64,000 nt of DNA, taken from the NCBI RefSeq assembly GCF_015773195.1, contig NZ_JADWYK010000004.1, positions 62,001-126,000 on the forward strand, in the 5' to 3' direction. Under the pieces are notes generated by a model. That model made no database searches. It saw nothing but the letters and a program-made list of their open reading frames with translations, and was not told the origin of the DNA. Shown here one piece after another: positions 8,834 through 56,681 of this stretch; the stretch's first letter is position 1, and every line of letters begins with the position of its first letter. This stretch comes from Hymenobacter guriensis (GTDB taxonomy: Bacteria > Bacteroidota > Bacteroidia > Cytophagales > Hymenobacteraceae). Both the position numbers and the translations under genes were made by a program.

Positions 8834-9192
8834 CAGGTAAGCAGCAGAACGGGACGCCGAAGATACAAGGAACCCGCGGGCAGGCTGGCAACCACCCTGC
8901 TATTTCCCCGGCTCAGGGCAGCTAACAGTTGCACTTTAGTTATATGGTGCCCCTAGGCTGCTTCTCGACTGCCTCTAGACTGCTTCTAGACTTTGCTCAG
9001 GGAAAGCCCCTGCCAAGTGGCTGACAGAATAGAAGTATACCAGGAGCTGGGCCGGCTAACTGTCATGCTTCATCTGGCGTCCGCTTTTCGAAGCATCTTG
9101 GTAGTGTAGTAAACCCAACGAAGCGGTAGAGATGCTTCGGCTATGCGGACGCCAGATGAAGCATGACGTTCTGTTTATGTCCAAAGCGTACT
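8834..9192. other. Gene-free interval with an 11-bp tandem repeat and a long palindrome
   Basis: Between the starts/ends of dnaG and the luciferase-like gene there is no plausible coding sequence. It holds the dnaG upstream region, three 11-bp units (GGCTGCTTCTC, GACTGCCTCTA, GACTGCTTCTA at 8956-8988), and the long palindrome at 9062-9167. Confidence 0.7.
9062..9167. repeat. Long palindrome, GTCATGCT / CGAAGCGGTAG family
   Basis: A perfect 23-bp stem pairs 9062-9084 with 9145-9167 (outer end GTCATGCTTCATC). A second, imperfect inner stem involves the core CGAAGCGGTAGAGATGCTTC at 9119-9138. The same core is present, base for base, in the palindrome at 31944-32032. REP-like intergenic element. 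Confidence 0.85.
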
Positions 9193-10248: not shown

Positions 10249-10337
10249 GTTGTTGGTTCTCAGTTGCCAGTTACCAGTTGCCAGACTCGAAGTACTCCGA
10301 CCTGACAACCGGCAACTGAGAACGGGCAACTCAATAA
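10249..10337. repeat. Heptamer-array inverted repeat, GTTGCCA type
   Basis: Left arm 10249-10283: GTTGTTG, GTTCTCA, GTTGCCA, GTTACCA, GTTGCCA (five units, 35 nt). Right arm read on the minus strand from 10337: TTATTGA, GTTGCCC, GTTCTCA, GTTGCCG, GTTGTCA. Nineteen bases separate the arms. The stop codon of the downstream minus-strand gene (10331-10333) lies in the outermost unit. Confidence 0.85.
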
Positions 10338-26962: not shown

Positions 26963-27121
26963 CAATTAGTAATTAAGAATTAGTAATGAATAATTACTGA
27001 CAAGGACACGTATTCCAGGCCCAACTATTTATCAATCCGACAATCGAACAAATAGAACCAGTTGACAAAAGCGCACGACTGCTTAAATAATCACTCATTT
27101 TTAATTATCAATTATTAATTA
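26963..27121. repeat. Heptamer-array inverted repeat, TAATTAR type
   Basis: Left arm 26963-26997: CAATTAG, TAATTAA, GAATTAG, TAATGAA, TAATTAC. Right arm 27087-27121, read on the minus strand: TAATTAA, TAATTGA, TAATTAA, AAATGAG, TGATTAT. Both are exactly five units. The loop is 89 nt. The stop codon of the histidine kinase (27115-27117) is inside the outermost right unit. Confidence 0.9.
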
Positions 27122-41294: not shown

Positions 41295-41394
41295 TAATTA
41301 GTAATTAATAATTAACAATTAGTAATGAGCTGATTCGATGGGCCTTGAGGCTGAAACACCGAATTCTTCATTATTAATTACTAATTATTAATTC
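41295..41394. repeat. Heptamer-array inverted repeat, TAATTAR type
   Basis: Left arm 41295-41329: TAATTAG, TAATTAA, TAATTAA, CAATTAG, TAATGAG. Right arm 41360-41394, read on the minus strand: GAATTAA, TAATTAG, TAATTAA, TAATGAA, GAATTCG. Exactly five units each, 30-nt loop. The outer right units encode the last six residues and stop of TsaE. Confidence 0.92.
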
Positions 41395-41809: not shown

Positions 41810-42032
41810 AGGTGATGAGGTAACACGTGACACGTAAGCCTGGAGGCAGGTTTAGCCATCGGAGATGGCGCGTCTGCCCGCCGACGGATAAAAGCAAGTC
41901 TCCTGACTTGCGGCTGCCCCAGCGGCCAGCCGGCGCCGCGCCGCCTGTGCCAGCTACCGGTTACCTGTCACGTGTCACGTGTCACCTGTCACGTGTCACC
42001 CCATCACCCTGTCACCTCAGCACCTATTACCT
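41810..42032. repeat. Composite array: heptamers nested within octamers
   Basis: Right side: five heptamers TGTCACG, TGTCACG, TGTCACC, TGTCACG, TGTCACC (41966-42000), then four octamers CCATCACC, CTGTCACC, TCAGCACC, TATTACCT (42001-42032). Left side: octamers AGGTGATG, AGGTAACA (41810-41825), then heptamers CGTGACA, CGTAAGC (41826-41839). The mirror order (octamer outside, heptamer inside) suggests one element inserted into another. The spacer between the arms is about 125 nt. Confidence 0.8.
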
Positions 42033-43610: not shown

Positions 43611-44036
43611 ATGCTTTCCCGGATCATCTTCTACTCCATCGACAAGGCCATCCGAACCTACCGGAAGCTGGCCCAGACCAACATAGACCGGGCGGGCATT
43701 GCCATTACCATCGACCAGTGGCTGGTGCTGCGCGTGATTGAGGAAGACCAGAGCCTGACCCAGACTGAAATTGCTGAGCGGGTGCTGAAAGACCAGGCTT
43801 CCGTGGCCCGCATGATTGCGCTGCTGCTCAAGCACGGCCTGCTGGCCTCCGAGCCGGTCGCCCACGATGCCCGCCGTACCCGGCTGCAAGTGACGCCCCA
43901 GGGCCAGGCTACGCTGGCGGCCGTGGAGCCGGTAATACTGCGCAACCGCGCCCAGGCGCTGCAGGGCATTTCGGAGGAGGAACTGGCTACCCTGCGCCGC
44001 CTGCTGGAACGCATATACCTCAACTGTTCTACCTGA
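43611..44036 (+). CDS. MarR family transcriptional regulator
   Basis: 141 residues, typical MarR size. The winged helix-turn-helix is clear: IDQWLVLRVIEEDQSLTQTE, IAERVLKDQASVARMIALLL, then the wing HDARRTRLQVTPQGQATL. MarR proteins are dimers that release DNA on binding a small ligand. The same palindrome (TACGAA-N4-TTCGTA) lies in front of this gene and twice in front of the barrel receptor gene that follows, so it probably represses both itself and the receptor. Confidence 0.95.
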   Translation: MLSRIIFYSIDKAIRTYRKLAQTNIDRAGIAITIDQWLVLRVIEEDQSLTQTEIAERVLKDQASVARMIALLLKHGLLASEPVAHDARRTRLQVTPQGQATLAAVEPVILRNRAQALQGISEEELATLRRLLERIYLNCST

Positions 44037-44091
44037 GCCCTGCTCCTGCCGCCTGTCCATCGGCTCATCGGCTCATCGGCAGAAACAAAAA

Positions 44092-44099
44092 TAATTTTG
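44092..44099 (+). promoter_or_regulatory. TAATTTTG -7 element for the receptor gene
   Basis: Exact TAnnTTTG match. The two MarR palindromes begin 5 and 28 bases downstream, covering the predicted transcription start. Confidence 0.65.
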
Positions 44100-44103
44100 A
44101 ATA

Positions 44104-44142
44104 TACGAACACCTTCGTACATTTACTACGAAATCATTCGTA
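44104..44142. promoter_or_regulatory. Twin MarR operators
   Basis: Two perfect palindromes, TACGAA-CACC-TTCGTA (44104-44119) and TACGAA-ATCA-TTCGTA (44127-44142), with centres 23 bp apart, about two helical turns. They sit just after the -7 element, the expected place for repression. Confidence 0.8.
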
Positions 44143-44203
44143 TTAACTCTATACTGATTCGAATGCCCGCCTCTGCTTTCTCTCACCAACCTTCTTCTGA
44201 GCT

Positions 44204-46645
44204 ATGAAAACTCTTTCTCTTACCCTTATGAGCACGTTGCTGGCGCTGTCGGCCCGGGCTCAGGTTGCCCCCGTTACCGGCCAGGTGCGCGACGCCCAGG
44301 GCGCGGTCGTGGAGTTTGCCACCGTCACCCTGCACCGCGCCGCCGACTCATTGGTGGTGAAATCGGAATTCAGCGACGAGCGGGGCGCTTACCGGCTGGA
44401 GCCGGCCGCCGCTGGGCGATACCTGATTTCGGTGGCGCAGCTAGGTTTCCGGCGGGCCTGGACCGGGCCGCTGGAGGTAGCCGGCAGTCCGGTGGCAGCA
44501 CCTCTCATCACCCTGCAGACCAGCGGGGCTACTACTCTGAAGGAAGTGACGGTAACAGGCAGCAAGCCGCTGTATGAGCGCCAGGCCGACCGCACGGTGG
44601 TGAACGTGGAAGGCAGCACGCTGGCGGCGGGCAATACGAGCTTGGATGTGCTGCGCCGCTCGCCTGGCGTGACGGTGGATGGCAACGACAACCTGGCATT
44701 GCGCGGGCGGCAGGGCTTGCTGGTGCTCATCGATGGCAAGCGGCAGCCCATGTCGGGCGCCGAGCTGGCTGATTACCTGCGCGGGCTGCCCGCCGACCAG
44801 CTCAAAAGCATTGAGCTGATAACCAACCCACCGGCCAAGTACGACGCACAGGGCGGGGCAGGCATCATTGCCATCAACCTGAAGAAAGACCAGCGCCAGG
44901 GCACCAACGGCACCGCGCAGGCCAGCCTGGGCTACGGGCGCTACCACAAAGCCACCGCGGGCCTGACGCTGAACCACCGGCGCAAGCACTACAACGTGTT
45001 TGGCTCCTACACCTTGGCCGACCGCCGCAACTACAGCGCCCTCACCATCAACCGGGACTTTTTCGACTACGCGGACAACACCCAGACGCTGGTGGGAAAG
45101 TCGTTCCAGGACAATCAGAGCGTGGGACATGGCCTTTCGCACAGCTGGAAGGCCGGGCTGGACTATACACTTTCGGAGCGCACCATCATCGGGACGGTGT
45201 TCAACGGGCTGGCCCTCAAAACCGACAGCAAAGGCTCCAACTTCTCGGAGCAGTATACCGCCGGCGGGGAGCTGACGCGGCGCTACACCTCTGACAACCG
45301 CCGCAACGGCGACGTGCCCAACTTCTCAGGCAACGTGAACTTCCGGCATACTTTTGCCGACTCGCTGGGAGGCCACGAGCTGACCGCCGATGCCGACTAC
45401 GCCCGCTACGATACGCGCCGCAACCAACTGCTGGACACCCGCTTTTCGTTTCCGCGCGACTCGGCCGACCGGTTCACCAGCGACCAGCAAAGCCTGCTCA
45501 CCATTCAATCGGTGAAGGCGGACTACACTCGACCCTTGAGTAAGGCGCTGCGCCTGGAGGCCGGCGGCAAAGTCAGCTGGGTATACTCCGACAACGACCT
45601 GGCGTTCCGCATTCCGGCCGTGGGCGGCGATGTGAGCCAGCTGGTGCGCGACCCGCTCCGCTCCAACCGTTTCCGCTACGACGAGAACATTGTGGCCGGC
45701 TACGTCAACTTCAACCAGACGCTGCCGCAGTGGACGCTGCAGGCCGGCCTGCGCGGGGAGCAAACCAACGCCGAGGGTAAGCCGGAGGCTGATTCTTTGC
45801 GCTTCAGCCGGCACTACTTCCAGCTGTTTCCGAGTGCGGCCGTGAAGCACACGTTCTCCGACAAGCACGAGCTGGCGCTGTCGCTGAGCCGGCGCATCGA
45901 CCGGCCTTCGTACGGGCAGCTGAACCCGTTTCGCTCCTACATCGACGTGACGACGTACGGGGCCGGCAACCCCGAGCTGCTGCCGCAAACCAGCTACAAC
46001 ATGGAGCTGACGCACACCTTTCAGCAGAAATACAGCGTGGGCTTGAGCTACGCCGTCACCTCGGACCCAATTATTGGCACAGTGCAGCCGGCCAAGGACG
46101 GGGGCCGGGTGGTGGTTTCGACCAGCCAGAACCTGGAGCGGCAGTATAACTACTCACTCACCTTTACGGTGCCGGTGGAGCCGGCCAAGTGGTGGAGCGT
46201 GTACAACAACGCGGTGTTTTACTACAGCCGTTTCGTGGGCAACCTAGCCGGCACGGCCCTGAACGCAGGCAGCCCCGCCTTCAACCTGAGCAGCAACAGC
46301 ACCTTTACGCTGGGCCACGACTGGAAGGCCGACCTGAACGCCACGTATCAATCCAAAGAGCGGTACGGCTACTTCCTCTCCAAGCCGCAGGGCGAACTAT
46401 CGGTGGGCGTGCAGAAAGGCTTATGGAACAACAAAGCCACCGTGAAGCTCAACGCTACCGATTTGCTGTACACCAACAAGGGCCGGGCTACCACGTCCTT
46501 CAACAACTACACCGAGCGGTTTTACCAGCGGTTTGAGTCGCGGGTGGTTACCCTGTCACTCAACTACCGCTTCGGCAACGACAAGTTAGCGCCGAGCAAG
46601 CGCCGACAAGGCGGCGCCGAAGACGAAAAGCGCCGGGCGCAGTAA
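44204..46645 (+). CDS. TonB-dependent receptor-like outer-membrane barrel protein
   Basis: 813 residues. Signal peptide (about 1-20, LLALSARAQ); CarboxypepD_reg-like domain (about 22-105, GQVRDAQGAVVEFATVTLHR); plug domain with VLRRSPGVTVDGNDNLALRG and LRGLPADQLKSIELITNPPA, then KYDAQGGAGI; barrel of the outer-membrane beta-barrel family 3 type ending RVVTLSLNYRFGNDK. No canonical TonB box is visible. The charged tail after the barrel is typical of the subgroup. Under probable MarR control, so it may take up or respond to a small toxic or signal molecule. Confidence 0.92.
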   Translation: MKTLSLTLMSTLLALSARAQVAPVTGQVRDAQGAVVEFATVTLHRAADSLVVKSEFSDERGAYRLEPAAAGRYLISVAQLGFRRAWTGPLEVAGSPVAAPLITLQTSGATTLKEVTVTGSKPLYERQADRTVVNVEGSTLAAGNTSLDVLRRSPGVTVDGNDNLALRGRQGLLVLIDGKRQPMSGAELADYLRGLPADQLKSIELITNPPAKYDAQGGAGIIAINLKKDQRQGTNGTAQASLGYGRYHKATAGLTLNHRRKHYNVFGSYTLADRRNYSALTINRDFFDYADNTQTLVGKSFQDNQSVGHGLSHSWKAGLDYTLSERTIIGTVFNGLALKTDSKGSNFSEQYTAGGELTRRYTSDNRRNGDVPNFSGNVNFRHTFADSLGGHELTADADYARYDTRRNQLLDTRFSFPRDSADRFTSDQQSLLTIQSVKADYTRPLSKALRLEAGGKVSWVYSDNDLAFRIPAVGGDVSQLVRDPLRSNRFRYDENIVAGYVNFNQTLPQWTLQAGLRGEQTNAEGKPEADSLRFSRHYFQLFPSAAVKHTFSDKHELALSLSRRIDRPSYGQLNPFRSYIDVTTYGAGNPELLPQTSYNMELTHTFQQKYSVGLSYAVTSDPIIGTVQPAKDGGRVVVSTSQNLERQYNYSLTFTVPVEPAKWWSVYNNAVFYYSRFVGNLAGTALNAGSPAFNLSSNSTFTLGHDWKADLNATYQSKERYGYFLSKPQGELSVGVQKGLWNNKATVKLNATDLLYTNKGRATTSFNNYTERFYQRFESRVVTLSLNYRFGNDKLAPSKRRQGGAEDEKRRAQ

Positions 46646-46675
46646 AGCCAACGCGGCTTCCTAATAATGTGCGAA

Positions 46676-46738
46676 ACAGACCAGCTGCACGAGTCGGAGA
46701 CGTAAACCCCTCTCTTATGGCTCGTGCAGCTGGTCTGT
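46676..46738. repeat. Perfect 18-bp inverted repeat after the receptor gene
   Basis: ACAGACCAGCTGCACGAG (46676-46693) pairs with 46721-46738 around a 27-nt loop. No T-run follows. It could be a 3' mRNA stabiliser, a Rho-independent terminator of poor design, or part of a repeat family. Confidence 0.6.
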
Positions 46739-46860
46739 TACGCGGCTCGGTGTCGAGCCCGGAACAAGTACTATAAACAGGTAAAAGCCTTTTGCAGATG
46801 TGCTTACTTGTTACATTTAGCAAACGCTTTACTGCTACAGACAGTCATTAGTTTAACTTC

Positions 46861-47208
46861 ATGAAGTTGAAACATCCAATACGTGATTTGATACTAGTCA
46901 TATTGGCTTGCGGTGGCATATATGTGTTTATCTTTATAGTTATGGGCAACCGAGATATAGCAGGAGGAGTGCTACTTAGTTGGATGCCCCAGCTAGCGGC
47001 ATTAATGTGGGCCGTTAGCTCCCGAAGTAATGGCAAAACGATTAACTATGGGCAAAACGTATTGAAAGTAGGTTGCTTTGTTACCATTGGCTTCACAGCA
47101 GGTTTAGCCCTATTTTTTTTAGTTTCCCCTCTTGGGCTTGCCATCTTTTTGCCAACAGTCATCGGTTACTTAGTCGTCCAACATATTAATCCAACAACAC
47201 ATAAGTAG
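46861..47208 (+). CDS. Small AT-rich membrane protein
   Basis: 115 residues with three likely membrane helices (LILVILACGGIYVFIFIV, LLSWMPQLAALMWAV, TIGFTAGLALFFLVSPLGLA). Composition is much richer in A+T than the genes around it, and codon use differs, so it may be transferred. It is followed at once by a bidirectional terminator. The order of helices resembles the start of some CPBP-type membrane proteases, but the catalytic motifs are absent. Function unknown. Confidence 0.72.
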   Translation: MKLKHPIRDLILVILACGGIYVFIFIVMGNRDIAGGVLLSWMPQLAALMWAVSSRSNGKTINYGQNVLKVGCFVTIGFTAGLALFFLVSPLGLAIFLPTVIGYLVVQHINPTTHK

Positions 47209-47216
47209 GCATAAAC

Positions 47217-47246
47217 AAAAAGGCCGGTCAACTGACCGGCCTTTTT
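47217..47246. terminator. Bidirectional terminator between the small membrane gene and porX
   Basis: AAAAAGGCCGGTCA and TGACCGGCCTTTTT form a perfect stem with a 2-base loop; both strands carry a T-run. Confidence 0.95.
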
Positions 47247-47260
47247 GTTTTCGCAACTAC

Positions 47261-48826
47261 CTACCCCCGCGGGCTCAGCGTCACGTACGGGATGATGCAC
47301 TCTTCCAGGGAGATGCCGCCGTGCTGGAACGTGTCCTTGTAGTAGTTCACGTAGTAGTTGTAGTTGTTGGGGTAGGCGAAGAAATAGTCGCCGACGGTGA
47401 AGACGTAGGCCGTACTCACGTTTTCGCGGGGCAGGAATACGCGCTCCGGCTTGCGCACGGTGTATACGTCACGGGAATCGTCGAAGCCCAGGTTTTTACC
47501 GTGCTTGTAGCGCAGGTTGGTGTTGGTGTTCCGGTCGCCCACAATCTTGTAGGGGCGGCGCACCCGAATGGTGCCGTGGTCGGTAGTGATGATGAGCTTG
47601 CCTTTCTTCTCGGCAATAACCTGCAGCATCTCATACAAGGGCGAGTGCAGAAACCACGAACGGGTGATGCTGCGGTAGGCCGACTCATCAGCGGCCAGCT
47701 CCCGGATCATGGCCATGTCGGTGCGGGCGTGGGAAAGCATGTCCACAAAGTTATAGACGATGACGTTGCACTTGTAGTTGTTGTGCAGGTTGCTCATTTT
47801 GCCCAGCAAGTCCTTGCCCGCCTGCAGGTTGGTCACCTTGTTGTAGCTGAACTTGTGCTTCTGGTTGGCCTTCTGGAACATGATTTCCATGAACTCGGCC
47901 TCGTGCAGGTTCTTGCCCTCGTCGTCGTCGTCCCACACCCACAGGTTGGGGTATTTCTTTTGGATTTCGCCCGGCATCATGCCCGAGAAGATGGCGTTGC
48001 GGGCGTAGGCCGTGGTGGTGGGCAGAATGCTGTAGTAGGTTTCCTCGGAGTCGACGGTGAACAGCTCGGCAATAATGGGCTCCAGCACTTTCCACTGGTC
48101 GTAGCGCAGATTGTCGATGAGCACGAAGTACACGGGCTGGTCGCCGGTTTCCTTGAGCAAGGGGAACACGCGCTTCTGGAACAGCTCGTGCGACATGAGC
48201 GGGGCATCCTTGTCGTCGCCGTTCACCCAGTCCTCGTAGTTCTCCGTGATGAAGCGGCCGAAGTAGGTGTTGGCCTCGTCCTTCTGCATGTTGAAGACCT
48301 CGGCCATGCTCTTGCCTTCCGTCTCGTTGATTTCCAGCTCCCAGTACACCAGCTTCTTGTACACATCGGCCCACTCCGAGGGCGAGAGGCGGTCGGAGAG
48401 CTGCATGCCCAGCTGGCGGAAGTCGCGCTGGTAGCCGGAGTTGGTGGCTTCGCTGATAAGGCGCTTGTTGTCGAGCACCCGCTTCACCGACAGCAGAATC
48501 TGGTTGGGGTTGACGGGCTTGATGAGGTAGTCGGCAATTTTGGCGCCGATGGCCGACTCCATAATGTGCTCTTCCTCGCTCTTGGTAATCATGACCACGG
48601 GCACGGTAGGCCGCACAGCTTTGATTTCGGTGAGGGTTTCGAGACCCGTGAGGCCGGGCATATTCTCGTCCAGAAAAACGATATCGTAGGTTTTCTCCTG
48701 GATTTCCTCAATGGCATCGGCGCCGGAGTTCACGCCCGTCACGTCGTAGCCTTTTTCCTTGAGAAAGAGAATGTGGGGTTTCAGGAGGTCGATTTCGTCG
48801 TCGGCCCAGAGAATGGAGTATTGCAT
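47261..48826 (-). CDS. porX: PorX, response regulator with PglZ-like output domain
   Basis: 521 residues. The receiver (1-125) has ILWADDEIDLLKPHILFL, Asp in YDIVFLDENMPGLTGLETL, VVMITKSEEE and Lys in IADYLIKPVNPNQ. The rest is a PglZ/alkaline-phosphatase-superfamily domain with YFVLIDNLRYDQW, TTTAYARNAIFSGMMPGEI and KLIITTDHGTIRV. In Porphyromonas and Flavobacterium PorX with kinase PorY controls type IX secretion genes and cleaves oligoadenylates. No PorY gene is in the window. The start codon is 4 bases from an octamer arm, so the promoter must lie in or beyond the adjacent element. Confidence 0.96.
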   Translation of the reverse strand: MQYSILWADDEIDLLKPHILFLKEKGYDVTGVNSGADAIEEIQEKTYDIVFLDENMPGLTGLETLTEIKAVRPTVPVVMITKSEEEHIMESAIGAKIADYLIKPVNPNQILLSVKRVLDNKRLISEATNSGYQRDFRQLGMQLSDRLSPSEWADVYKKLVYWELEINETEGKSMAEVFNMQKDEANTYFGRFITENYEDWVNGDDKDAPLMSHELFQKRVFPLLKETGDQPVYFVLIDNLRYDQWKVLEPIIAELFTVDSEETYYSILPTTTAYARNAIFSGMMPGEIQKKYPNLWVWDDDDEGKNLHEAEFMEIMFQKANQKHKFSYNKVTNLQAGKDLLGKMSNLHNNYKCNVIVYNFVDMLSHARTDMAMIRELAADESAYRSITRSWFLHSPLYEMLQVIAEKKGKLIITTDHGTIRVRRPYKIVGDRNTNTNLRYKHGKNLGFDDSRDVYTVRKPERVFLPRENVSTAYVFTVGDYFFAYPNNYNYYVNYYKDTFQHGGISLEECIIPYVTLSPRG

Positions 48827-48830
48827 AGAA

Positions 48831-49494
48831 GGGACTTGGGGACTTAGGGGCTTAGGGACTTGGTTTGTTCTCTCGGCCCGGTCAGATTCAACTTGTGCGG
48901 AAAACAGCCGCCGGTTGGCGTTGCATACGTAAGAGCTTAACCAAACAGTGGCAAAAAATATTGTGCAAGGTAAATTCTTCGTGAAATTCAAGCTCAGTGT
49001 AGCCCTTTCTTATTCTGCCTTATGTTTGATTTTCGGAAGCTCATCGTTTGGCAGGAGGGCCATCAACTTACTTTAGCGGTTTATCAGGCCACTCGCCCCT
49101 TCCCTAAAGAAGAACTGTTCGGTCTCACCAGCCAAATGCGCCGCTCAGCCGCTTCTATTCCTCATAACATTGCCGAGGGCTGTGGCCGAAACAGCTATGC
49201 TGAACTTGCCCGCTTCGTTACCATCAGTATGGGTTCAGCAAGTGAGTTGGAAACTCAGTTACTGCTTGCTAAAGATCTGCTTTACCTTTCCGCTCCTGAA
49301 GCAGAGGTATTAACGCAACATTGCAGCCGTTTGCGCCGAATGCTGCAGGCTTTCCAGACCAAAATCAAGCAGTACGCTGACCGATAGAAGACACATTAAA
49401 CCTCTGCTACTACCAGCCTACACGGCCACAAAAACAAATCCCACGATGAGGACCGGACCAACCAAGTCCCGATGTCCCCAAGTCCCCAAGTCCC
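48831..49494. mobile_element. Octamer-array element carrying a four-helix-bundle gene
   Basis: Left arm 48831-48862: GGGACTTG, GGGACTTA, GGGGCTTA, GGGACTTG. Right arm 49463-49494, read on the minus strand: GGGACTTG, GGGACTTG, GGGACATC, GGGACTTG. Each arm is exactly four 8-mers. The 600-nt interior holds one gene, an IVP-type four-helix-bundle protein. The left end is 4 bases from the porX ATG and the right end is one base before the TTG start of the HD gene. No transposase or target duplication seen; mobility is inference. Confidence 0.7.
49022..49387 (+). CDS. Four-helix-bundle protein, 23S rRNA intervening-sequence (IVP/S23) family
   Basis: 121 residues, standard family length. It begins FDFRKLIVWQEGHQLTLAVY, then LFGLTSQMRRSAASIPHNIA and EGCGRNSYAELARFV, and ends with two more helices (LLLAKDLLYLSAPEAEVL, LRRMLQAFQTKIK). 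Relatives are encoded inside intervening sequences of 23S rRNA, and the related bAvd binds reverse transcriptase in diversity-generating retroelements; a basic concave surface suggests RNA or DNA binding. Here it lies in an element bounded by matching octamer arms, not in rRNA. No promoter of the TAnnTTTG type is obvious; ATG is preceded by TCTGCCTT. Confidence 0.93.
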   Translation: MFDFRKLIVWQEGHQLTLAVYQATRPFPKEELFGLTSQMRRSAASIPHNIAEGCGRNSYAELARFVTISMGSASELETQLLLAKDLLYLSAPEAEVLTQHCSRLRRMLQAFQTKIKQYADR

Positions 49495-50724
49495 TTGAAT
49501 AAGAAAAAAATCTTTAACGACCCCGTCTACGGCTTCGTGACCATCCCCACGGAGCTGCTGTTTGACCTGATTGAGCACTCGTACTTCCAGCGGCTGCGGC
49601 GCATTCAGCAGCTGGGACTCACCATGTTTGTGTACCCGGGGGCCCTGCACACGCGCTTTCACCACGCGCTGGGCGCCATGCACCTGATGACGCTGGCCCT
49701 GCGCACGCTCAAGGACAAGGGCGTGAAGATTTCGGCTAAGGAAGGCGAGGCCGCCATGGCCGCCATTCTGCTCCACGACATCGGCCACGGCCCCCTCTCC
49801 CACGCCCTGGAGCGCAGCATTTTCCACGATGTGCACCACGAGCAGGTGAGCTTGCACCTGATGAAAAAGCTGAACGCGCAGTTTGGCGGGGCGCTGGCGC
49901 TGGCCATTGAAATTTTTCAGGGCACCTACCACCGGCCGTTTTTCCACCAACTGGTGAGCAGTCAGCTGGATATGGACCGGCTCGACTACCTTAACCGGGA
50001 CTCGTTCTATACCGGCGTGCAGGAAGGCCGCCCCGGCGCCGACCGCCTCATCAAGATGCTCACGGTGGTGGATGAGCGGCTAGTGCTGGAGGAAAAAGCC
50101 GTGTACAGCATCGAGAACTTTCTGGTGAGCCGCCGGCTGATGTACTGGCAGGTGTACCTGCACAAAACCGTCACGTCGGCCGAGCAGATGGTGATTCGGA
50201 TTATGCAGCGGGCCCGGGATTTGGTGCGGGCCGGCGTGGCGGTACCGGCCTCGCCTAACCTGCACTTTTTCCTTTCGCGCAACGTCACCCAGCAGGAGTT
50301 TGAGGTCGACGACCAGATCCTGCGCCGCTTCACCCGCCTCGACGATACTGACGTGTGGGGGGCGGTGAAGCTCTGGGCCGACCACCCCGACAAAGTGCTG
50401 AACTACCTGGCCCAAAGCATGCTCGACCGGCACTTGTTCAAGATTCAGCTGCAGGCCGAGCCGTTTGAGGAAGACTTCCAGCTGGGCATCGTGGAGCTGA
50501 TTGCCGAGCATTTCCAACTGCCGCCCACCGATGCCGCCCAGCTGATGCTTACCGGCCGCATCAGCAACAACGCCTACGATGCCGACGGTCAGGACACCAT
50601 CGACGTGCTGACCAAGCGAGGCCGGGTAGTAAACGTGGCCGAAGCCTCTGACCTGCCCAACATCAAAGCCCTGGGCCAGCGCGTGGAAAAGCACTACATA
50701 TGCTACCCCAAGGAGATTCTGTAA
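49495..50724 (+). CDS. HD domain phosphohydrolase
   Basis: 409 residues from a TTG start. No in-frame ATG lies near, and the protein would begin NKKKIFNDPVYGFVTIPTEL, the normal N-terminus of this family. The HD site is visible: HTRFHHALGAMHLM, ILLHDIGHGPLSHALE and the Asp of QLDMDRLDYLNRDSF. It probably hydrolyses (d)NTPs or a nucleotide signal (dGTPase/SAMHD1-like). The right arm of the octamer element ends at 49494, so the element lies directly against the start and may have changed it. Octamer arrays flank the gene on both sides. Confidence 0.93.
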   Translation: MNKKKIFNDPVYGFVTIPTELLFDLIEHSYFQRLRRIQQLGLTMFVYPGALHTRFHHALGAMHLMTLALRTLKDKGVKISAKEGEAAMAAILLHDIGHGPLSHALERSIFHDVHHEQVSLHLMKKLNAQFGGALALAIEIFQGTYHRPFFHQLVSSQLDMDRLDYLNRDSFYTGVQEGRPGADRLIKMLTVVDERLVLEEKAVYSIENFLVSRRLMYWQVYLHKTVTSAEQMVIRIMQRARDLVRAGVAVPASPNLHFFLSRNVTQQEFEVDDQILRRFTRLDDTDVWGAVKLWADHPDKVLNYLAQSMLDRHLFKIQLQAEPFEEDFQLGIVELIAEHFQLPPTDAAQLMLTGRISNNAYDADGQDTIDVLTKRGRVVNVAEASDLPNIKALGQRVEKHYICYPKEIL

Positions 50725-50728
50725 ATCA

Positions 50729-50831
50729 GGGTCTTGAGGACTTAGGGGCTTGGATGATGGCCAACGATTTGACTGGCCGTTGTTTAGTGGAACATCAACC
50801 AAGACCCTAAGTCCCCAAGCCTCCAAGACCC
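50729..50831. repeat. Octamer-array inverted repeat, GGGACTTR type
   Basis: Left arm 50729-50760: GGGTCTTG, AGGACTTA, GGGGCTTG, GATGATGG. Right arm 50800-50831, read on the minus strand: GGGTCTTG, GAGGCTTG, GGGACTTA, GGGTCTTG. Four units each, 39-nt loop, no gene inside. Same unit family as the element at 48831-49494. Confidence 0.9.
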
Positions 50832-50842
50832 CAACAATTTCC

Positions 50843-50850
50843 TACTTTTG
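50843..50850 (+). promoter_or_regulatory. TACTTTTG -7 element for lpxD
   Basis: Exact TAnnTTTG match 7 bases before the lpxD ATG and 11 bases after the octamer arm; a -33 box would have to fall inside the arm. Confidence 0.65.
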
Positions 50851-50857
50851 TCCTCCT

Positions 50858-51898
50858 ATGGAATTTACGGTAGCCCAGGTAGCGGAAGTATTGCACGGCA
50901 CAGTCGAAGGCGACGCCGAGCTGCGCATTAATCGGCTGGCAAAAATCGAAGAGGCCCAGGCGGGCGCCATTACGTTTCTGGCCAACCCCAAGTACGAGCC
51001 CCAGCTTTATACCACCCACGCCACGGCCGTCATTGTGAGCCGCACGCTGGAGCTGCGCCAGCCAGTGGCGGCCACGCTTATCCGCGTAGATGACCCCTAT
51101 TCCTGCTTTACGGCTTTGCTGGAATTCTACCAGCAGAATGCCCGCACCGGCCGGCGCGGCGTGGAAGAGCCCGCCTTTATGGGCCCCGGCTCCACCATCG
51201 GCGACAACCCCTACCGCGGGGCCTTCTCCTACATCGGCGAGAACTGCGTGATTGGCCGCGACGTGCTGATTTTCCCCAACGCCACCATCGGCGACCGGTG
51301 CCGCATCGGCGACGGCACCGTGATTTACGCCGGCGCCAAGATTTACGCCGACACCGTTATCGGGGCCCGCTGCGTGGTGCACGCCGGCGCCGTTATCGGC
51401 TCCGATGGGTTTGGATTTGCCCCCCAGCCGGATGGCTCCTACCGTCCCATTCCGCAGATTGGCAACGTGGTGCTGGAAGACAACGTGAGCATTGGGGCCA
51501 ACGCTACTATCGACTGCGCTACGCTGGGGTCCACCATCATCCGGGAAGGCAGCAAAATCGATAACCTGGTGCAGATTGCTCACAACGTGGAAATCGGGCG
51601 CCATACCGTGGTGGCTTCGCAAACCGGTATTTCGGGCTCTACTAAAATCGGGGACTTCTGCGTGCTGGCCGGGCAGGCCGGGTTGGCCGGGCACCTCACG
51701 CTGGCCAACCGCACCACCGTTACGGCCCAGTCGGGTGTTGGCAAGTCCATCAAGGAGGAAGGCGTGCTGCTGCAAGGGTCCCCGGCCTTCGCCCTGCGCG
51801 ACAGTCTGCGGGCCAACGCCATCTTCCGGCACCTGCCCGAGCTGGAGCGCCGCGTTACTGCGCTGGAGCGCAACCAATCCGAACAGGAAAAGCCCTAG
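50858..51898 (+). CDS. lpxD: UDP-3-O-acylglucosamine N-acyltransferase
   Basis: 346 residues; adds the second acyl chain in lipid A synthesis. The N-terminal uridine-binding domain has FTVAQVAEVLHGTVEGDAEL and ITFLANPKYEPQLYTTHATA. The left-handed beta helix is built of hexapeptides (VIYAGAKIYADTVIGARCVV), with the catalytic His in NLVQIAHNVEIGRHTVVA. A C-terminal helix follows (LPELERRVTALERNQ). It starts the lipid A group lpxD, lpxC-fabZ, lpxA; arrays sit before and after it. Confidence 0.97.
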   Translation: MEFTVAQVAEVLHGTVEGDAELRINRLAKIEEAQAGAITFLANPKYEPQLYTTHATAVIVSRTLELRQPVAATLIRVDDPYSCFTALLEFYQQNARTGRRGVEEPAFMGPGSTIGDNPYRGAFSYIGENCVIGRDVLIFPNATIGDRCRIGDGTVIYAGAKIYADTVIGARCVVHAGAVIGSDGFGFAPQPDGSYRPIPQIGNVVLEDNVSIGANATIDCATLGSTIIREGSKIDNLVQIAHNVEIGRHTVVASQTGISGSTKIGDFCVLAGQAGLAGHLTLANRTTVTAQSGVGKSIKEEGVLLQGSPAFALRDSLRANAIFRHLPELERRVTALERNQSEQEKP

Positions 51899-51915
51899 CT
51901 TTGCAGCCGGTTTCT

Positions 51916-51996
51916 GTTTCTGGTTGCTCGTTTCTGGTTTTTAGTTGTCGTTCAACTAACGGAGAAACCAGCAACCAGAAACCAGAAACCAGAAAC
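51916..51996. repeat. Heptamer-array inverted repeat, GTTTCTG type
   Basis: Left arm 51916-51950: GTTTCTG, GTTGCTC, GTTTCTG, GTTTTTA, GTTGTCG (plus a 6-nt GTTTCT before it). Right arm 51962-51996, read on the minus strand: GTTTCTG, GTTTCTG, GTTTCTG, GTTGCTG, GTTTCTC. Five units each; loop 11 nt. Lies between lpxD and lpxC-fabZ. Confidence 0.92.
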
Positions 51997-52004
51997 TTAA
52001 CTAC

Positions 52005-53399
52005 ATGAACGACAAGCAACATACCATTAAGGCTCCGGTGACGGTAAGCGGCATTGGGCTGCACACCGGTGTGGTGGCCACCATGACTTTCTGCCCGGCC
52101 CCCATCAACCACGGCTACAAGTTTCAGCGCATCGATTTGCCCGGTCAGCCCCTCGTGGACGCCGACGTGGACAATGTGGTAGACCTGAGCCGCGGTACCA
52201 CCATCGAGCAGAACGGGGCCCGCGTAAATACCGTGGAGCACACGCTGGCCGCGCTGGTAGGGTTGCAGATTGACAACGTGCTGATTCAGCTGGATGGCCC
52301 CGAGCCGCCCATTATGGATGGCAGCAGCTACGAGTTCATTAAGCCCCTGCAGGAAGTGGGCCTGGAAGAGCAGAACGCCCTGCGCAACTACTTCGAAATC
52401 CCCGACGAGGTGCGGTTTGTGGACAATGCCCGCGCCGTGGAAATTGCCGGCCTTCCCCTGAACGACTACCGCGTGACGGTGATGGTGGACTACAATTCCC
52501 CGGTGCTCGGCTCCCAGCACGCGTCCCTTACCGACATCACCCAGTTTGCCTCCGAAATTGCTTCCTCGCGTACCTTCTGCTTTTTGCACGAGCTGGAAGC
52601 TCTCTACAAGCAGAACCTCATCAAAGGCGGCGACCTGAGCAATGCTATTGTGGTGGTAGACCGCGTGGTGAGCGAGGATGAGCTGAGCGAACTGGCCACT
52701 ATGCTGGGCAAGCCCAAAGTGGCCGTAAAAAAGGAAGGCATCCTCAACAACGTGGATTTGCGCCACAAAAACGAGCCCGCCCGCCACAAGCTCCTCGATT
52801 TGATTGGGGATTTGGCCCTGGTGGGGCGCCCGCTGAAAGGCCAGATTCTGGCTGCCCGGCCGGGCCACGCCGCCAACGTAGCCTTCGCCAAGAAAATCAA
52901 GAAGAAGATGCTGGAGGCCAACACCTCACCGGTGCCCACCTACGACCCTTCGCGGGAGCCGGTGATGGACATCAACCGCATCAGCCAGATTCTGCCCCAC
53001 CGCTACCCTTTCCTGCTCATCGACAAGATTATTCACCTGGATGCCAGCACGGTAACGGGCGTGAAGAACGTGACGATGAACGAGCCGTTCTTCCCCGGCC
53101 ACTTCCCCGGCAACCCCATTATGCCCGGCGTGCTGCAGATTGAAGCTATGGCCCAGACCGGCGGCATTCTGGTGCTGAACACGGTGCCTGACCCCGAGAA
53201 CTACTGGACGTACTTCATGGGCATTGAAAGCTGCCGCTTCCGCCGCAAAGTATTGCCCGGCGACACCATCATTTTCAAGTGCCATTTGTTAGCTCCTATC
53301 AAACGGGGCATTGCCAAGATGAGCGGCAAGGCTTTCGTGAATGGCAAAGTGGTGATGGAGGCCGAAATGACCGCCAGCATCGTCCGCAAAGACGCCTGA
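52005..53399 (+). CDS. lpxC-fabZ: Bifunctional LpxC-FabZ: deacetylase / hydroxyacyl-ACP dehydratase
   Basis: 464 residues. LpxC part (about 1-310): [15 protein letters not shown], zinc-ligand His in [24 protein letters not shown], the other ligands in [16 protein letters not shown] and [12 protein letters not shown]. FabZ part (about 325-464): [17 protein letters not shown], catalytic His in [20 protein letters not shown] and Glu in IEAMAQTGG. The first enzyme makes the committed step of lipid A; the second supplies hydroxyacyl chains for elongation. The fusion is a known hallmark of Bacteroidota. Confidence 0.98.
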
Positions 53400-53403
53400 T
53401 TTC

Positions 53404-53502
53404 CAATTAGTAATTAATAATTAAGAATGAATAATGCTCATACCACCCGTTGCGTGGCGTCGTTGAGGCAATTCTTAATTATTAATTCTTAATTACTAAT
53501 TA
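53404..53502. repeat. Heptamer-array inverted repeat, TAATTAR type
   Basis: Left arm 53404-53438: CAATTAG, TAATTAA, TAATTAA, GAATGAA, TAATGCT. Right arm 53468-53502, read on the minus strand: TAATTAG, TAATTAA, GAATTAA, TAATTAA, GAATTGC. Five units each; loop 29 nt. Fills the gap between lpxC-fabZ and lpxA. Confidence 0.93.
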
Positions 53503-53517
53503 CCCCCCTTCCCCCGA

Positions 53518-54318
53518 ATGAACCAGCCGCTCGCCTACATCCACCCCGAGGCCATTATTGCGCAGAACGTCGTAGTAGAGCCGTTTACCACGATTGACAA
53601 GGACGTGGAAATTGGGGAAGGCACCTGGATTGGCCCCAACGTAACCATTATGGCCGGGGCCCGCATTGGCAAAAACTGCAAGATCTTCCCCGGCGCGGTA
53701 ATTTCCGCCATGCCCCAGGACCTGAAGTTTGCCGGCGAGAAAACCACGGCCCATATAGGCGACAACACCGTGATTCGGGAGTGTGTGACGATAAACCGCG
53801 GCACCGTAGACAAGCTCAAGACCGTGGTAGGCGCCAACTGCCTGATTATGGCCTACGTGCACGTAGCCCACGACTGCGTAATCGGCAACAACTGTATTCT
53901 GGCCAATACGGTGCAGGTGGCCGGCCACGTCGAAATCGGCGACTACGCCATTATTGGTGGCTCCTCGTCTATCCATCAGTTCGTGCACATCGGGGCCCAC
54001 GCCATGATTTCGGGCGGCTCCCTGATTCGCAAGGACGTGCCACCGTTTGTAAAGGCCGGACGGGAGCCACTCAGCTACGCCGGCATCAACTCCATCGGGC
54101 TACGCCGCCGGGGCTTCTCCGATCAGAAGATTGCCGAAATCCAGCAGCTCTACCGCCTGCTGTTTCTGAGCGGCCTGAACAACAACGCCGCCCTCGACCA
54201 GATTGAGCTGGAGCTGGCGCCCTCGCCCGAGCGCGACGAAGTGGTGAACTTCATCCGCAACTCCGGCCGGGGCGTCATCAAAGGCTATTCGCGTAACGGC
54301 AACGGCAGCGGGGAGTAA
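53518..54318 (+). CDS. lpxA: UDP-N-acetylglucosamine acyltransferase
   Basis: 266 residues; first acyl transfer of lipid A synthesis. Left-handed beta-helix hexapeptides run from AYIHPEAIIAQNVVVEPFTT through EGTWIGPNVTIMAGARIGKN; the catalytic-His segment is MAYVHVAHDCVIGNNCILAN, and GGSSSIHQFVHIGAHAMISG follows. The C-terminal helical part has SIGLRRRGFSDQKIAEIQQL. Normal length. It follows lpxC-fabZ with only an array in between. Confidence 0.98.
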   Translation: MNQPLAYIHPEAIIAQNVVVEPFTTIDKDVEIGEGTWIGPNVTIMAGARIGKNCKIFPGAVISAMPQDLKFAGEKTTAHIGDNTVIRECVTINRGTVDKLKTVVGANCLIMAYVHVAHDCVIGNNCILANTVQVAGHVEIGDYAIIGGSSSIHQFVHIGAHAMISGGSLIRKDVPPFVKAGREPLSYAGINSIGLRRRGFSDQKIAEIQQLYRLLFLSGLNNNAALDQIELELAPSPERDEVVNFIRNSGRGVIKGYSRNGNGSGE

Positions 54319-54337
54319 TCGTCAGCAACCAACCGCT

Positions 54338-54970
54338 ATGCAGATTGAGGCCCACGGGCTGGGAAAGCGCTTCGTGCGCGAGTGGATTTTCCGGGGCCTG
54401 ACGCACACTTTCCGGCCGGGTACGGCCACGGCCATTCTGGGCCCGAACGGCGCGGGCAAAAGCACCCTGCTCAACACCTTATCGGGCCAGCTGCTGGCCT
54501 CGGAAGGCACGCTGGCGTACTCGCGGGATGGGCAGAAAGTGGCCGTGGAAAATGTACCACCATTGCTGGCCTACGCCGCGCCCTACCTGGAGCTGATTGA
54601 GGAATTGACGCTCACGGAGCTGCTGCAGTTTCACATCCGTTTTAAGCCGCTACGGCCCGGTTTTTCCCCGGCGCGGCTTATCGAGTTGATGTATCTGGAT
54701 AAGTCGCGCCACAAGCTGGTACGGGACTTTTCCTCCGGTATGAAGCAGCGCCTTAAGCTGGCGTTGGCGCTCTACTCCCACGCTCCGCTCCTGCTCCTGG
54801 ACGAGCCCACCACCAACCTCGACCGCGCCGGGGTGGCCTGGTACCAGGAGCACGTGCGCGCCACGCTGGCGGGCCGGCTGGTGCTGGTATCGAGCAACGT
54901 GCCGGAGGAGTATGACTTCTGCCAGGAACAACTCAATATCACCGATTTCGGGGCCCAGGCCGCCCGTTGA
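54338..54970 (+). CDS. ABC transporter ATP-binding protein
   Basis: 210 residues, 19 bases after lpxA. Walker A ILGPNGAGKSTLLNTLSG, signature DFSSGMKQRLKLALAL (FSSGM in place of LSGGQ) and Walker B APLLLLDEPTTNLDRAGVAW are present. No permease gene is adjacent. The closest pattern is the short ATPases of CcmA or gliding-type (GldA-like) exporters. Its partner must be encoded elsewhere; substrate unknown. The position suggests expression with the lipid A genes. Confidence 0.93.
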   Translation: MQIEAHGLGKRFVREWIFRGLTHTFRPGTATAILGPNGAGKSTLLNTLSGQLLASEGTLAYSRDGQKVAVENVPPLLAYAAPYLELIEELTLTELLQFHIRFKPLRPGFSPARLIELMYLDKSRHKLVRDFSSGMKQRLKLALALYSHAPLLLLDEPTTNLDRAGVAWYQEHVRATLAGRLVLVSSNVPEEYDFCQEQLNITDFGAQAAR

Positions 54971-55172
54971 GTTTCCAAGTACTCTCGTATTTTTGGGTAA
55001 ATGCCCCTTCGTCATGCCTGCCCAATCTCCGCTGTATGCCCAACTGGACATCAAGATTAGCTTACCGGAGTTGGCAACGACGATGCCATGAATTACCGGA
55101 AACACCGCGCTGATTTGCCCTGGCAACAGCTGACTTTGCTGGCCAACGCAACCTTCGCAACCCCTGCGCCCG

Positions 55173-55180
55173 TATCTTTG
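55173..55180 (+). promoter_or_regulatory. TATCTTTG -7 element
   Basis: Exact TAnnTTTG match, 59 bases before the ATG of the acidic protein gene. Confidence 0.6.
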
Positions 55181-55239
55181 CCGCCCGTGCACCGCATTTT
55201 CTTCTTCGATTTTTCACTCTTTACTGCCTTAGCAAGGCC

Positions 55240-55599
55240 ATGAGACAATACGACAACCTCGACGACGATTTCCTCGATGATGACGACGAGCTGGATAGCT
55301 TCGCCAAAACCGGCGGCAGTAAAACCCGCGGCTCCTCCGAGGACCAGCTTTCGGCCAAGTACGCCGACTACCTGATGTGGCGCGACACGGGCTCCTCCCA
55401 CGACGAGGCCCTGGACCTGGCCAGCATGACCGAAGAAGAATACACCGCCGCCGAAGCGGCCGAAGACCCCGACAGCAGCCGCGGCTTCAGCTCCTTGGAC
55501 GACGATGATGAAGATGCCTTTGACGACCTCGACGATGACGACAGCTTCGGCAGCAGCCGCAGCAAAAGCAAAGGTCGCTACGACGATGACGACTATTAG
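55240..55599 (+). CDS. Small, strongly acidic protein
   Basis: 119 residues dominated by Asp, Glu and Ser. Runs such as NLDDDFLDDDDELDSFAK at the N-terminus and SLDDDDEDAFDDLDDDDSFG at the C-terminus flank a central helical part (LSAKYADYLMWRDTGSSHDE, ALDLASMTEEEYTAAE). Promoter, ordered composition and a terminator support expression. Likely disordered outside the centre; could bind cations or basic proteins. No function assigned. The stop codon begins a five-unit TTAGAGC array. Confidence 0.82.
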   Translation: MRQYDNLDDDFLDDDDELDSFAKTGGSKTRGSSEDQLSAKYADYLMWRDTGSSHDEALDLASMTEEEYTAAEAAEDPDSSRGFSSLDDDDEDAFDDLDDDDSFGSSRSKSKGRYDDDDY

Positions 55600-55630
55600 A
55601 GCTTAGAGCTTAGAGCTTAGAGCTTAGAAT
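55596..55630. repeat. Five-heptamer array, TTAGAGC type, single arm
   Basis: TTAGAGC four times and then TTAGAAT, exactly five units (35 nt). The TAG of the first unit is the stop codon of the acidic protein gene. No inverted partner is found nearby. Confidence 0.9.
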
Positions 55631-55637
55631 GTATGAC

Positions 55638-55676
55638 AAAGGCCCCGCAACGGTTGTCGCGGGGCCTTTCTCTTTT
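55638..55676. terminator. Bidirectional terminator
   Basis: AAAGGCCCCGC (55638-55648) pairs with GCGGGGCCTTT (55659-55669), followed by CTCTTTT; serves the acidic protein gene and the convergent DUF4197 gene. Confidence 0.9.
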
Positions 55677-55736
55677 GTCTTTTTTTGGCTGCTTGTTGCT
55701 CACTTCAAGCATAAGCACGAGGCACTACCCCTATTT

Positions 55737-56480
55737 CTATTTGCGGCCGAACACGCGCTTGAGCAGCTCGGTGGTGCGGGCAATGGGGTTTTCGCGGATG
55801 TTGGCTTCTTCCTGGGCAATGAGCGTGAACAGCCCGTCGATGGCCTTGCCGGTAGCGTACTGGTTCAGGTCGGTTTGCACGGGTTTCACCAGCGGAATCT
55901 GGTTGTAGCGCGTGGTAAGACTGGTGTAGTAGCGGGTGGCCCCTACTTTATCGAGGCTCTGCTGGATGATGGGCTGGAAGGCCGTGGTGAGCTGCGCGGT
56001 GGTGGTGCGCTTGAGGTACTGCGTGGCCGCATCCTTCTCACCCGTGAGAATATTCCACACGTCGGAAAAGGTGAGGCTCTTGATGGCGGAAATGAAGATG
56101 GGCTTGGCACTCTTGGCCGCGTCTTCGGCGCCCCGGTTCAGGCTCAGCTCAAACTTGTCGACTTCCGCCCCCAGGCCAATTTTGCGGAGCGTGGTAGCCA
56201 CGCGCTGGGCATCGGCTGGGAAAGGAATACGAATCAGGTTGTTGAGGTAGAAGCCATCCTGCTGGGAGGCCTGGTCGGCGCCTTTGCTGATGCCCTGCAC
56301 CAACGCTTCCTTCAAGCCGCTGGCGGCTTCCTGCTGCGTAACGGCGCCGGTTTGGGTGGTGGAGGTTGGCTTGGGCAGGGTAATGCTGCCTACCCGGGGC
56401 AGCGTAATGGTTTGGGCGCAGGCCGTGAGGCTTAGGCTGGAACCCAGGGCCAAAATCAGCGAATAGCGAAAGTTTTTCAT
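55737..56480 (-). CDS. DUF4197 family lipoprotein
   Basis: 247 residues from MKNFRYSLILALGSS; lipobox LTAC with Cys21. After a Ser/Thr/Pro linker the DUF4197 domain (about 55-247) shows EAASGLKEALVQGISKGADQ, NLIRIPFPADAQRVATTLRK and YATGKAIDGLFTLIAQEEAN. These proteins are common in proteobacteria and Bacteroidota; function unknown. Upstream GACCTTTG is a weak promoter candidate. An inverted heptamer array (56556-56632) lies between it and the divergent cinA. Confidence 0.93.
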   Translation of the reverse strand: MKNFRYSLILALGSSLSLTACAQTITLPRVGSITLPKPTSTTQTGAVTQQEAASGLKEALVQGISKGADQASQQDGFYLNNLIRIPFPADAQRVATTLRKIGLGAEVDKFELSLNRGAEDAAKSAKPIFISAIKSLTFSDVWNILTGEKDAATQYLKRTTTAQLTTAFQPIIQQSLDKVGATRYYTSLTTRYNQIPLVKPVQTDLNQYATGKAIDGLFTLIAQEEANIRENPIARTTELLKRVFGRK

Positions 56481-56555
56481 AAATCGGAGCGGCAAAGGTC
56501 GGTTGGCTGTACGGCAGCCTCGGCCGCCCGTTCGCATAAACCGGACCAGTTTTTT

Positions 56556-56632
56556 GTTGTTTGCTGCTAGTTACGAGTTGCCAGTCGAAACCAGGCCCGG
56601 CAACCGACTACCGGCCGCTTACCGCCGACTAC
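56556..56632. repeat. Heptamer-array pair, degenerate
   Basis: Left arm 56556-56590: GTTGTTT, GCTGCTA, GTTACGA, GTTGCCA, GTCGAAA. Right arm 56598-56632, read on the minus strand: GTAGTCG, GCGGTAA, GCGGCCG, GTAGTCG, GTTGCCG. Five units each with G at the first position, 7-nt loop; complementarity between arms is only partial. Confidence 0.6.
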
Positions 56633-56681
56633 AAGCCCCGAAACCCCGACAACCTTTCCCCACACCCCACGTCACGTACTC

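Follow-up and report, generated by a model that had tools for sequence, protein, structure and literature searches.

A small gene lies between two inverted octamer arrays in the spacer separating porX from an HD gene of Hymenobacter guriensis, which raises the question of whether the segment is an element with its own gene, a hairpin serving the host or a chance neighborhood of gene and repeats. The initial annotation, made from the sequence alone, had read it as a candidate coding-competent element whose protein, a member of the family of intervening-sequence proteins of 23S rRNA (hereafter IVP), acts on hairpin DNA or RNA. The window denotes here the whole stretch of 64,000 nucleotides that was analyzed (C24:62001-126000, contig NZ_JADWYK010000004.1) in this genome of 5.3 Mb, and coordinates are those of the window unless another contig is named.

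The divergent porX/HD spacer and its IVP gene

The porX-type and HD domains of the two neighbors were confirmed by profile search. Since porX starts at 48826 on the minus strand (read from its ATG) and the HD gene at 49495 on the plus strand, the spacer, which measures about 670 nt with its IVP gene, is divergent and the arms lie within a few nucleotides of both start codons, the left one stopping just short of that of porX (table 1). The inverted arms of four GGGACTTR units around a single gene, as described in the initial annotation, are real: they are 40 nt long each, 88% complementary and 588 nt apart, with exact fit to GGGACTTR in six of the eight units. The left arm consists of GGGACTTG GGGACTTA GGGGCTTA GGGACTTG and the right arm, read inward, of GGGACTTG GGGACTTG GGGACATC GGGACTTG; alignment of the left flank with the reverse-complemented right flank gives an arm score of 30. 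No Rfam match was found at gathering scores within window positions 44000-57000. A tandem repeat of a different kind (TGCCTCTAGAC, 4.1 copies) is present at 8948-8992.

Table 1. Positions of the cassette between porX and the HD gene and of gene-less inverted pairs in the window
Feature	Position	Strand	Description and evidence
Left arm	48829..48868	+	Four 8-nt GGGACTTR-type units, G-rich strand inward; inverted-pair search; period 8, 4.0 copies
Right arm	49457..49496	-	Inverted copy of left arm; period 8, 4.1 copies; touches TTG start codon of HD gene (49495)
IVP gene	49022..49387	+	121 aa, four-helix-bundle protein, PF05635/TIGR02436
Block conserved in close IVP-less relatives	48920..48988		Inside the arms; by eye against G072, G073 and G055
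Gene-less pair, same octamer family as the arms	50729..50834	+	Between HD gene and next gene
Gene-less heptamer pair, AATTAGT type	53403..53504	+	Spacer read as lpxC-lpxA; fold and scan
Gene-less heptamer pair, GTTTCTG/AGAAACC	51905..51998	+	Tandem-repeat search, scan and fold
Gene-less heptamer pair, AATTAGT type	41295..41393	+	Scan and fold
Gene-less heptamer pair, AATTAGT type	26964..27120	+	95-nt loop; scan
Gene-less heptamer pair, AGTTGCC type	10249..10330	+	17-nt loop; scan

The layout of inverted ends with a reading frame in the loop thus stands, with the amendment that, by eye, the loop also holds native spacer DNA beside the IVP gene. Part of this DNA is a conserved block that is probably the promoter region of porX; because the arms enclose this block as well, the copy at this site does not have the form of a clean insertion terminated by its arms. 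Target-site duplications were not seen by eye in spacer comparisons at the porX site or in the lpxC-lpxA and pepA spacers. (The names fadJ, thiolase, pepA, pdxA, lpxC, lpxA, MFP and RND are those we take the respective genes to have, as recognized from their sequences).

The product of the enclosed gene belongs, as initially annotated, to the family of 23S rRNA intervening-sequence proteins, with 129 bits for PF05635 (cut-off 33.8) and 125 for TIGR02436 (cut-off 24), and no other Pfam family was found on this gene. Its monomer model (pLDDT 97) has its best fold matches in 2gsc (TM 0.91), an entry with five chains that was compared with the monomer model, and in 2rld, followed by the Avd proteins of diversity-generating retroelements (TM 0.76-0.77 for the chains of 4dwl), so that profile scores and predicted fold agree on membership in the four-helix family. 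The conserved polar residues Q38, R41, S45, N49 and E52 are spaced by three or four along the helix formed by residues 35-55 of the model and may have a nucleic-acid or active-site role; no catalytic motif was recognized in the protein. The IVP gene is under purifying selection: dS could be computed for 10 of 15 pairs, which gave dN/dS values of 0.009-0.079 that are rough in the five pairs with dS above 1. For loci L001 and L018, the arms are identical in 34/34 and 33/34 positions at an IVP dS of 0.46.

Inverted arrays with and without small genes

Arms were scored by local comparison of the left flank with the reverse-complemented right flank over 350 nt, with a cut-off of at least 16. A profile search found five PF05635 genes in the H. 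guriensis genome, all of which lie between inverted 7- or 8-nt arrays with a unit different in each (TGAGTAG-like, GGGACTTR, GTGCTTA, AATTAGTA-like and GGTGAAAT-like); by eye, the left array overruns the stop codon of the preceding gene in four of them. The cut-off is reached by 5/5 loci of this genome, 29/29 of the genus and 22/30 of the phylum, hence 56 of 64 IVP loci, eight phylum loci falling below it, and by none of 30 loci of the HxlR regulators taken as the control family. Inverted orientation gives the higher score in 55 of the 56 passing loci, and the remaining one is a tie; in direct orientation 7/64 loci reach 16. Shuffled flanks reach the cut-off in 0 to 1.3% of cases, depending on the group, and mismatched pairs of IVP loci in 9.3% of 1,500 draws, matches that we ascribe to loci sharing the same site. 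The IVP, control and other-family loci in these counts are the best-scoring matches, mostly one per genome, rather than a random sample, and those at contig ends (L079, L097, L115 and L154) were counted with corrected flanks.

A wider scan with one genome per species kept 80 IVP loci, of which 78 were scored after omission of L267 and L290 (left flank of about 100 nt or less). The cut-off is reached by 58 of these 78, with 20 below it, and 49 of the 58 score higher in the inverted than in the direct orientation. Sorted by record title, the passing loci comprise 47/62 from Bacteroidota (one titled merely 'bacterium') and 11/16 others, including Geobacter, Desulfosarcina and a Clostridiales record, even if several of the other-titled records are metagenome bins that may be misnamed. 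The initial annotation had considered its element family undermined if four-helix genes elsewhere lacked paired arms; the counts refute such a lack, support the reading as an element family and widen the family beyond the window. Chance or a general repeat background as the source of the arms is ruled out by the HxlR control, the shuffles and the same-site comparison. Arm similarity correlates with IVP similarity (Mantel rho 0.25, none of 300 permutations as high), a correlation confounded by host relatedness.

By eye, the arm units consist mostly of RG followed by five or six bases, (RG N5-6)n. The best period among 27 IVP elements is 7 in 16, 8 in 9 and 14 in 2, and the G-rich strand points inward in 55 of 56 IVP elements as well as in all 18 hand-picked left arms of gene-less pairs. 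Three further families of small genes have repeats on both sides with a grammar of their own. Among GxxExxY loci, 25/30 reach 16, with inverted above direct scores in 18 of those 25 and a CACAGAG-like grammar. The respective figures are 18/30 and 7/18 for DUF559, in a set that includes weak matches and matches within long reading frames, and 14/24 and 3/14 for GIY-YIG, six of 30 loci being omitted as truncated; their repeats, CCCTCTCC-like and GTCATCCTGAG-like respectively, are not clearly inverted. Since palindromic repeats or repeated DNA surround the genes of these three families, inverted enclosure is evident with IVP genes, likely with GxxExxY genes and possible with those of DUF559 and GIY-YIG. 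When loci are assigned to the family of their nearest neighbour by nothing but the sequence of their arms, the assignment is correct in 74 of 82 cases (permuted labels: mean 21, maximum 38 in 5,000 permutations). Two loci of the H. guriensis genome deserve separate mention: the GIY-YIG gene at C11:245229-245453 (L394) has long inverted arms, CGTCATGCCGAGCGTAGCCGAGGCATCTCGCGTGCTGACGTTG, scoring 53 against 17 in direct orientation, and the GxxExxY gene at C5:67685-68026 (L119) has an internal TAG and arms scoring 84, perhaps as a decaying copy.

Inverted pairs without a gene are frequent in the same genome. In 464 kb, 27 pairs were called automatically, of which we counted 18 as clean gene-less 7/8-mer pairs; the other nine comprise the IVP pair, seven matches of coding-like DNA over long distances and one pair that is unclear. 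Partners at score 16 numbered 28 in inverted against 11 in direct orientation. Extrapolated from these 464 kb, gene-less arrays would outnumber IVP genes in the genome more than ten times. The pair downstream of the HD gene, which in the initial annotation looked like a non-coding relative, is real, with a single-strand fold z of -5.8 and none of 200 shuffles as stable, but the 39 nt given for its empty loop vary with the cut of the arms, of which the best-paired lie 33 nt apart. By eye, the loops of gene-less pairs are unrelated even where the unit is shared, so that copying of whole elements is unsupported as their source. Gene-less arms match the genome's own IVP arms with a mean best score of 13.0, against 11.1 for random other-species sets (0/300 as high; hand-picked arms, pool of 10), a result only suggestive of trans-mobilization by the genome's own IVPs.

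Of the gene-less sites, the lpxC-lpxA spacer can be followed across 20 relatives. By eye it holds an inverted pair in all of them, with about seven unit types; within-genome arm scores range from 11 to 31, and 15 of the 20 reach 16. Among nine representatives picked by eye, arms match better within (18.4) than between genomes (12.5; 1 of 20,000 permutations as high), so both arms tend to change together, with right arms fairly alike across types (15.6).

Two other arrays of the window were seen outside these sets. A perfect TTAGAGC array (55596-55628, 4.7 copies) directly follows a stop codon and precedes, by eye, a terminator-like GC hairpin; no partner was seen for it and it resembles a one-sided arm. 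A TGTCACG array (41966-42024, 4.9 copies), for which a weak match in inverted orientation exists near 41818, was left out of the clean-pair count.

Occupancy and apparent exchange at shared sites

The porX spacer contains an IVP gene in 7 of 68 scored genomes, and all seven have matched arms with a score of at least 18; none of the 61 genomes without IVP reaches 15. (The sample, 70 of 101 genomes, combines the 30 best matches with 40 hand-picked genomes, including three known IVP carriers; the partner gene was not found in two of the 70, and 7/68 is thus not a frequency). A segment present and identical in all relatives, which would have spoken against an element, is contradicted by these 61 of 68 genomes that have neither the gene nor matched arms. 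The promoter-like block is present both with and without IVP, and in some IVP-less spacers, by eye, units persist singly or on one side close to the start of porX, suggesting that the arms decayed once the cassette was lost. In the tree, the IVPs from the porX spacer group in a single clade (fork 91/91, not starred, with three genes entered twice under another label), a topology more in keeping with long-standing residence and losses than with frequent jumps.

Similar comparisons were made in the spacers of pepA (18 of 20 genomes scored) and of MFP-RND (17 of 18 scored, two of 20 having been dropped earlier for want of a close match). Four of the 17 scored MFP-RND spacers hold an IVP gene, each with arms scoring 24-28, and the IVP-bearing spacers of the two comparisons measure 431-579 nt. 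At both sites several other species have, where the IVP cassette would lie, hairpins that are similar to those of the other gene families, and in some species there is no hairpin. The pepA-pdxA spacer is a hot spot for several hairpin classes; its 20 loci (L325-L344) differ by species, some having an IVP cassette, others a hairpin of the GTCATCCTGAG or the CCCCTC type and others neither cassette nor hairpin. By eye, the empty pepA spacer of genome G003 cannot be recovered around the element of G000, the spacer having been replaced. At four MFP-RND loci (L365, L366, L373 and L374), the IVP cassette lies between apparently co-directional efflux genes and its stem could form within one mRNA.

Two sites allow gene, arms and neighborhood to be compared. 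By eye, IVP subclade and arm unit go together at the fadJ-thiolase site (10 loci) and at a second site (11 loci). Trees of the left and of the right flank reject the IVP/arm groups as clades, with p-AU values of 6.7e-42 and 1.2e-5 at the fadJ-thiolase site and, on both sides of the second site, 2.7e-4 and 3.5e-4. Loci L018 and L033 have 60-nt flanks that are 98% identical on each side and yet IVP proteins of 69% identity and different units; L024/L027 and L025/L029 resemble this pattern with 83-94% in the outer 60 nt. In L020/L016 the outer 60 nt are 81% identical on the left and 98% on the right, and in L026/L030 those on the left are merely 63% alike. In the clearest pairs, in which flanks are alike but IVPs and units differ, the limits of what was exchanged thus coincide with the arm edges or lie close to them. 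Gene and arms thus look, on sequence comparison, as if they had been exchanged together between species at the two sites, in the manner of a mobile cassette; short-tract homologous recombination could also yield the conflict with the flanks. The DNA identity profile of L001 and L018, which are of the same type with 99% identical IVP proteins, has no sharp boundary. At the fadJ site, the identity profile does not support a transfer between G000 and G092 that would be both recent and sharply bounded.

Relation to known elements and the most probable reading

Intervening sequences of rRNA were discovered over 25 years ago, with function and origin described as still unclear (PMC4990558). The same article presents a Coxiella 23S insert that is excised by RNase III and has a 28-bp terminal stem with tandem GACAGAT heptamers before the start of S23p, cites an older idea that such inserts were once mobile elements with an ORF serving mobility, and considers the S23p ORF to be undergoing reductive evolution. 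The cassettes share with these sequences the protein family, its position in the loop of a hairpin and the inverted ends, as at the porX/HD locus, and the tandem heptamers that adjoin the Coxiella gene follow the same grammar, strengthening the rRNA analogy first proposed for this locus; the available excerpts of PMC4990558 mention no inverted partner array for them. GACAGAT is also found in the IVP arms of L292. Unlike rRNA intervening sequences, the cassettes considered here lie between protein genes (porX and HD in the window) and not in an rRNA gene, their unit differs among the copies, purifying selection acts on the gene and gene-less relatives are abundant.

REPINs, as portrayed in PMC3116915, are the closest mechanistic analogue, as they too combine few gene copies near repeats with many gene-less extragenic hairpins per genome; the doublets of our scan (18 in 464 kb) correspond to the latter. 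Contrary to RAYTs, the arm-enclosed IVP is no Y1/HUH tyrosine transposase, and contrary to REP sequences the arms are short tandem units that vary freely. Intergenic heptamer arrays have also been reported for Xanthomonas (GGGAATC), Beggiatoaceae (TAACTGA) and Geobacter (GGGACCG), with mostly four units in Xanthomonas and 70 and 75 inverted pairs in two of its strains (PMC4692102; PMC4679880; PMC2700814). They resemble IVP arms in being short tandem heptamers between genes but, in the excerpts of their descriptions, are not tied to an IVP gene or cassette; the TAACTGA repeats are presented as direct ones, and members of the GGGACCG family occur inside genes as well (PMC4692102; PMC4679880; PMC2700814). 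In the open-access literature, outside of which most subscription papers lie, our search recognized no paper on IVP genes in intergenic 7/8-mer arms.

With a probability of roughly 0.6, we consider the segment between porX and the HD gene to belong, as one of its copies, to a widely distributed family of intergenic cassettes, in which an IVP gene lies between inverted (RG N5-6)n arrays and which would spread in a homing-like manner. The IVP cassette is best read as a relative of rRNA intervening sequences that resides between genes and whose action resembles, to some degree, that of REPINs with their RAYT genes. Arms and gene appear to behave as one unit, since at two sites one type seems to have replaced another with the neighbors keeping their own history. 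A pentamer of IVP would bind the arm hairpin in single-stranded or cruciform form and promote hairpin copying or strand exchange; its target would be a spacer already holding a related hairpin, resulting in homing-like re-entry to the same spacers. By analogy with REPINs and RAYT genes, the gene-less inverted arrays are probably derivatives or trans-mobilized relatives of the cassette, and the 23S rRNA intervening sequences with IVP genes most likely constitute a branch of the family that entered rRNA helices. More tentatively, we would extend this to a superclass of single-gene hairpin elements from several unrelated small-protein families, clearly with IVP and GxxExxY and perhaps with DUF559 and GIY-YIG, each traveling with repeats of its own grammar, leaving gene-less hairpins and competing with the others for the same spacers; the IVP branch would move without a nuclease or transposase of any known kind, and would have entered ribosomal genes in the form of rRNA intervening sequences.

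The arms could instead be regulatory hairpins of the host, namely stems for processing or expression tuning under selection for pairing, and IVP a host RNA-binding protein encoded next to some of these stems. This accords with the lpxC-lpxA spacer, where by eye a pair is present in all 20 relatives despite differing units and both arms change together, and with the strong single-strand folds. We nevertheless regard it as unlikely, for in the divergent porX/HD spacer each arm belongs to a transcript of its own, arm units change jointly with IVP types against the flanks and other small-gene families have repeats with a grammar of their own. The same dependence of grammar on gene family also weighs against the idea that the hairpin came first, slippage-prone inverted arrays arising by themselves and the IVP gene merely landing in their loops, as do the tracking of IVP subclade by arm unit at two sites, seen by eye, and the lack of matched arms in all 61 IVP-less relatives at the porX site. 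Such an origin would suit the excess of gene-less pairs over genes, their unrelated loops even for the same unit and the different hairpins that other species have in the pepA and MFP spacers; on balance it seems improbable to us.

Inverted ends, intergenic location and multiple copies are also what an ordinary transposon, or a MITE mobilized by a transposase in trans, would display. The terminal repeats of such elements are fixed, and the five copies of the H. guriensis genome differ in theirs; IVP spacers of 431-579 nt, or about 670 nt here, are too short for an additional transposase gene, no target duplication is seen by eye and gene-less copies have arms but not loops in common, all of which makes this alternative very unlikely. 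Least credible is retro-copying, in which a reverse transcriptase would take part as it does with the Avd proteins, whose fold IVP shares. A study of diversity-generating retroelements, as far as its excerpts go, found PF05635 to be the commonest family in its data and noted its likeness to Avd (PMC10053308). The H. guriensis genome has five IVPs and no RVT_1 match, and within the genus RVT_1 is found in 18 of 101 genomes against 83 of 101 for IVP, counts that, for the RVT_1 family, rule out dependence on reverse transcriptase as a general need.

Under the cassette reading, a gene known from rRNA intervening sequences is found outside rRNA, within matching arms and apparently exchanged with them, which suggests a substrate for its protein. 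IVP cassettes would also offer one way to explain the heptamer arrays that have been reported here and there from bacterial spacers, and the rule by which arms sort with gene families may tie abundant anonymous hairpins to specific small genes.
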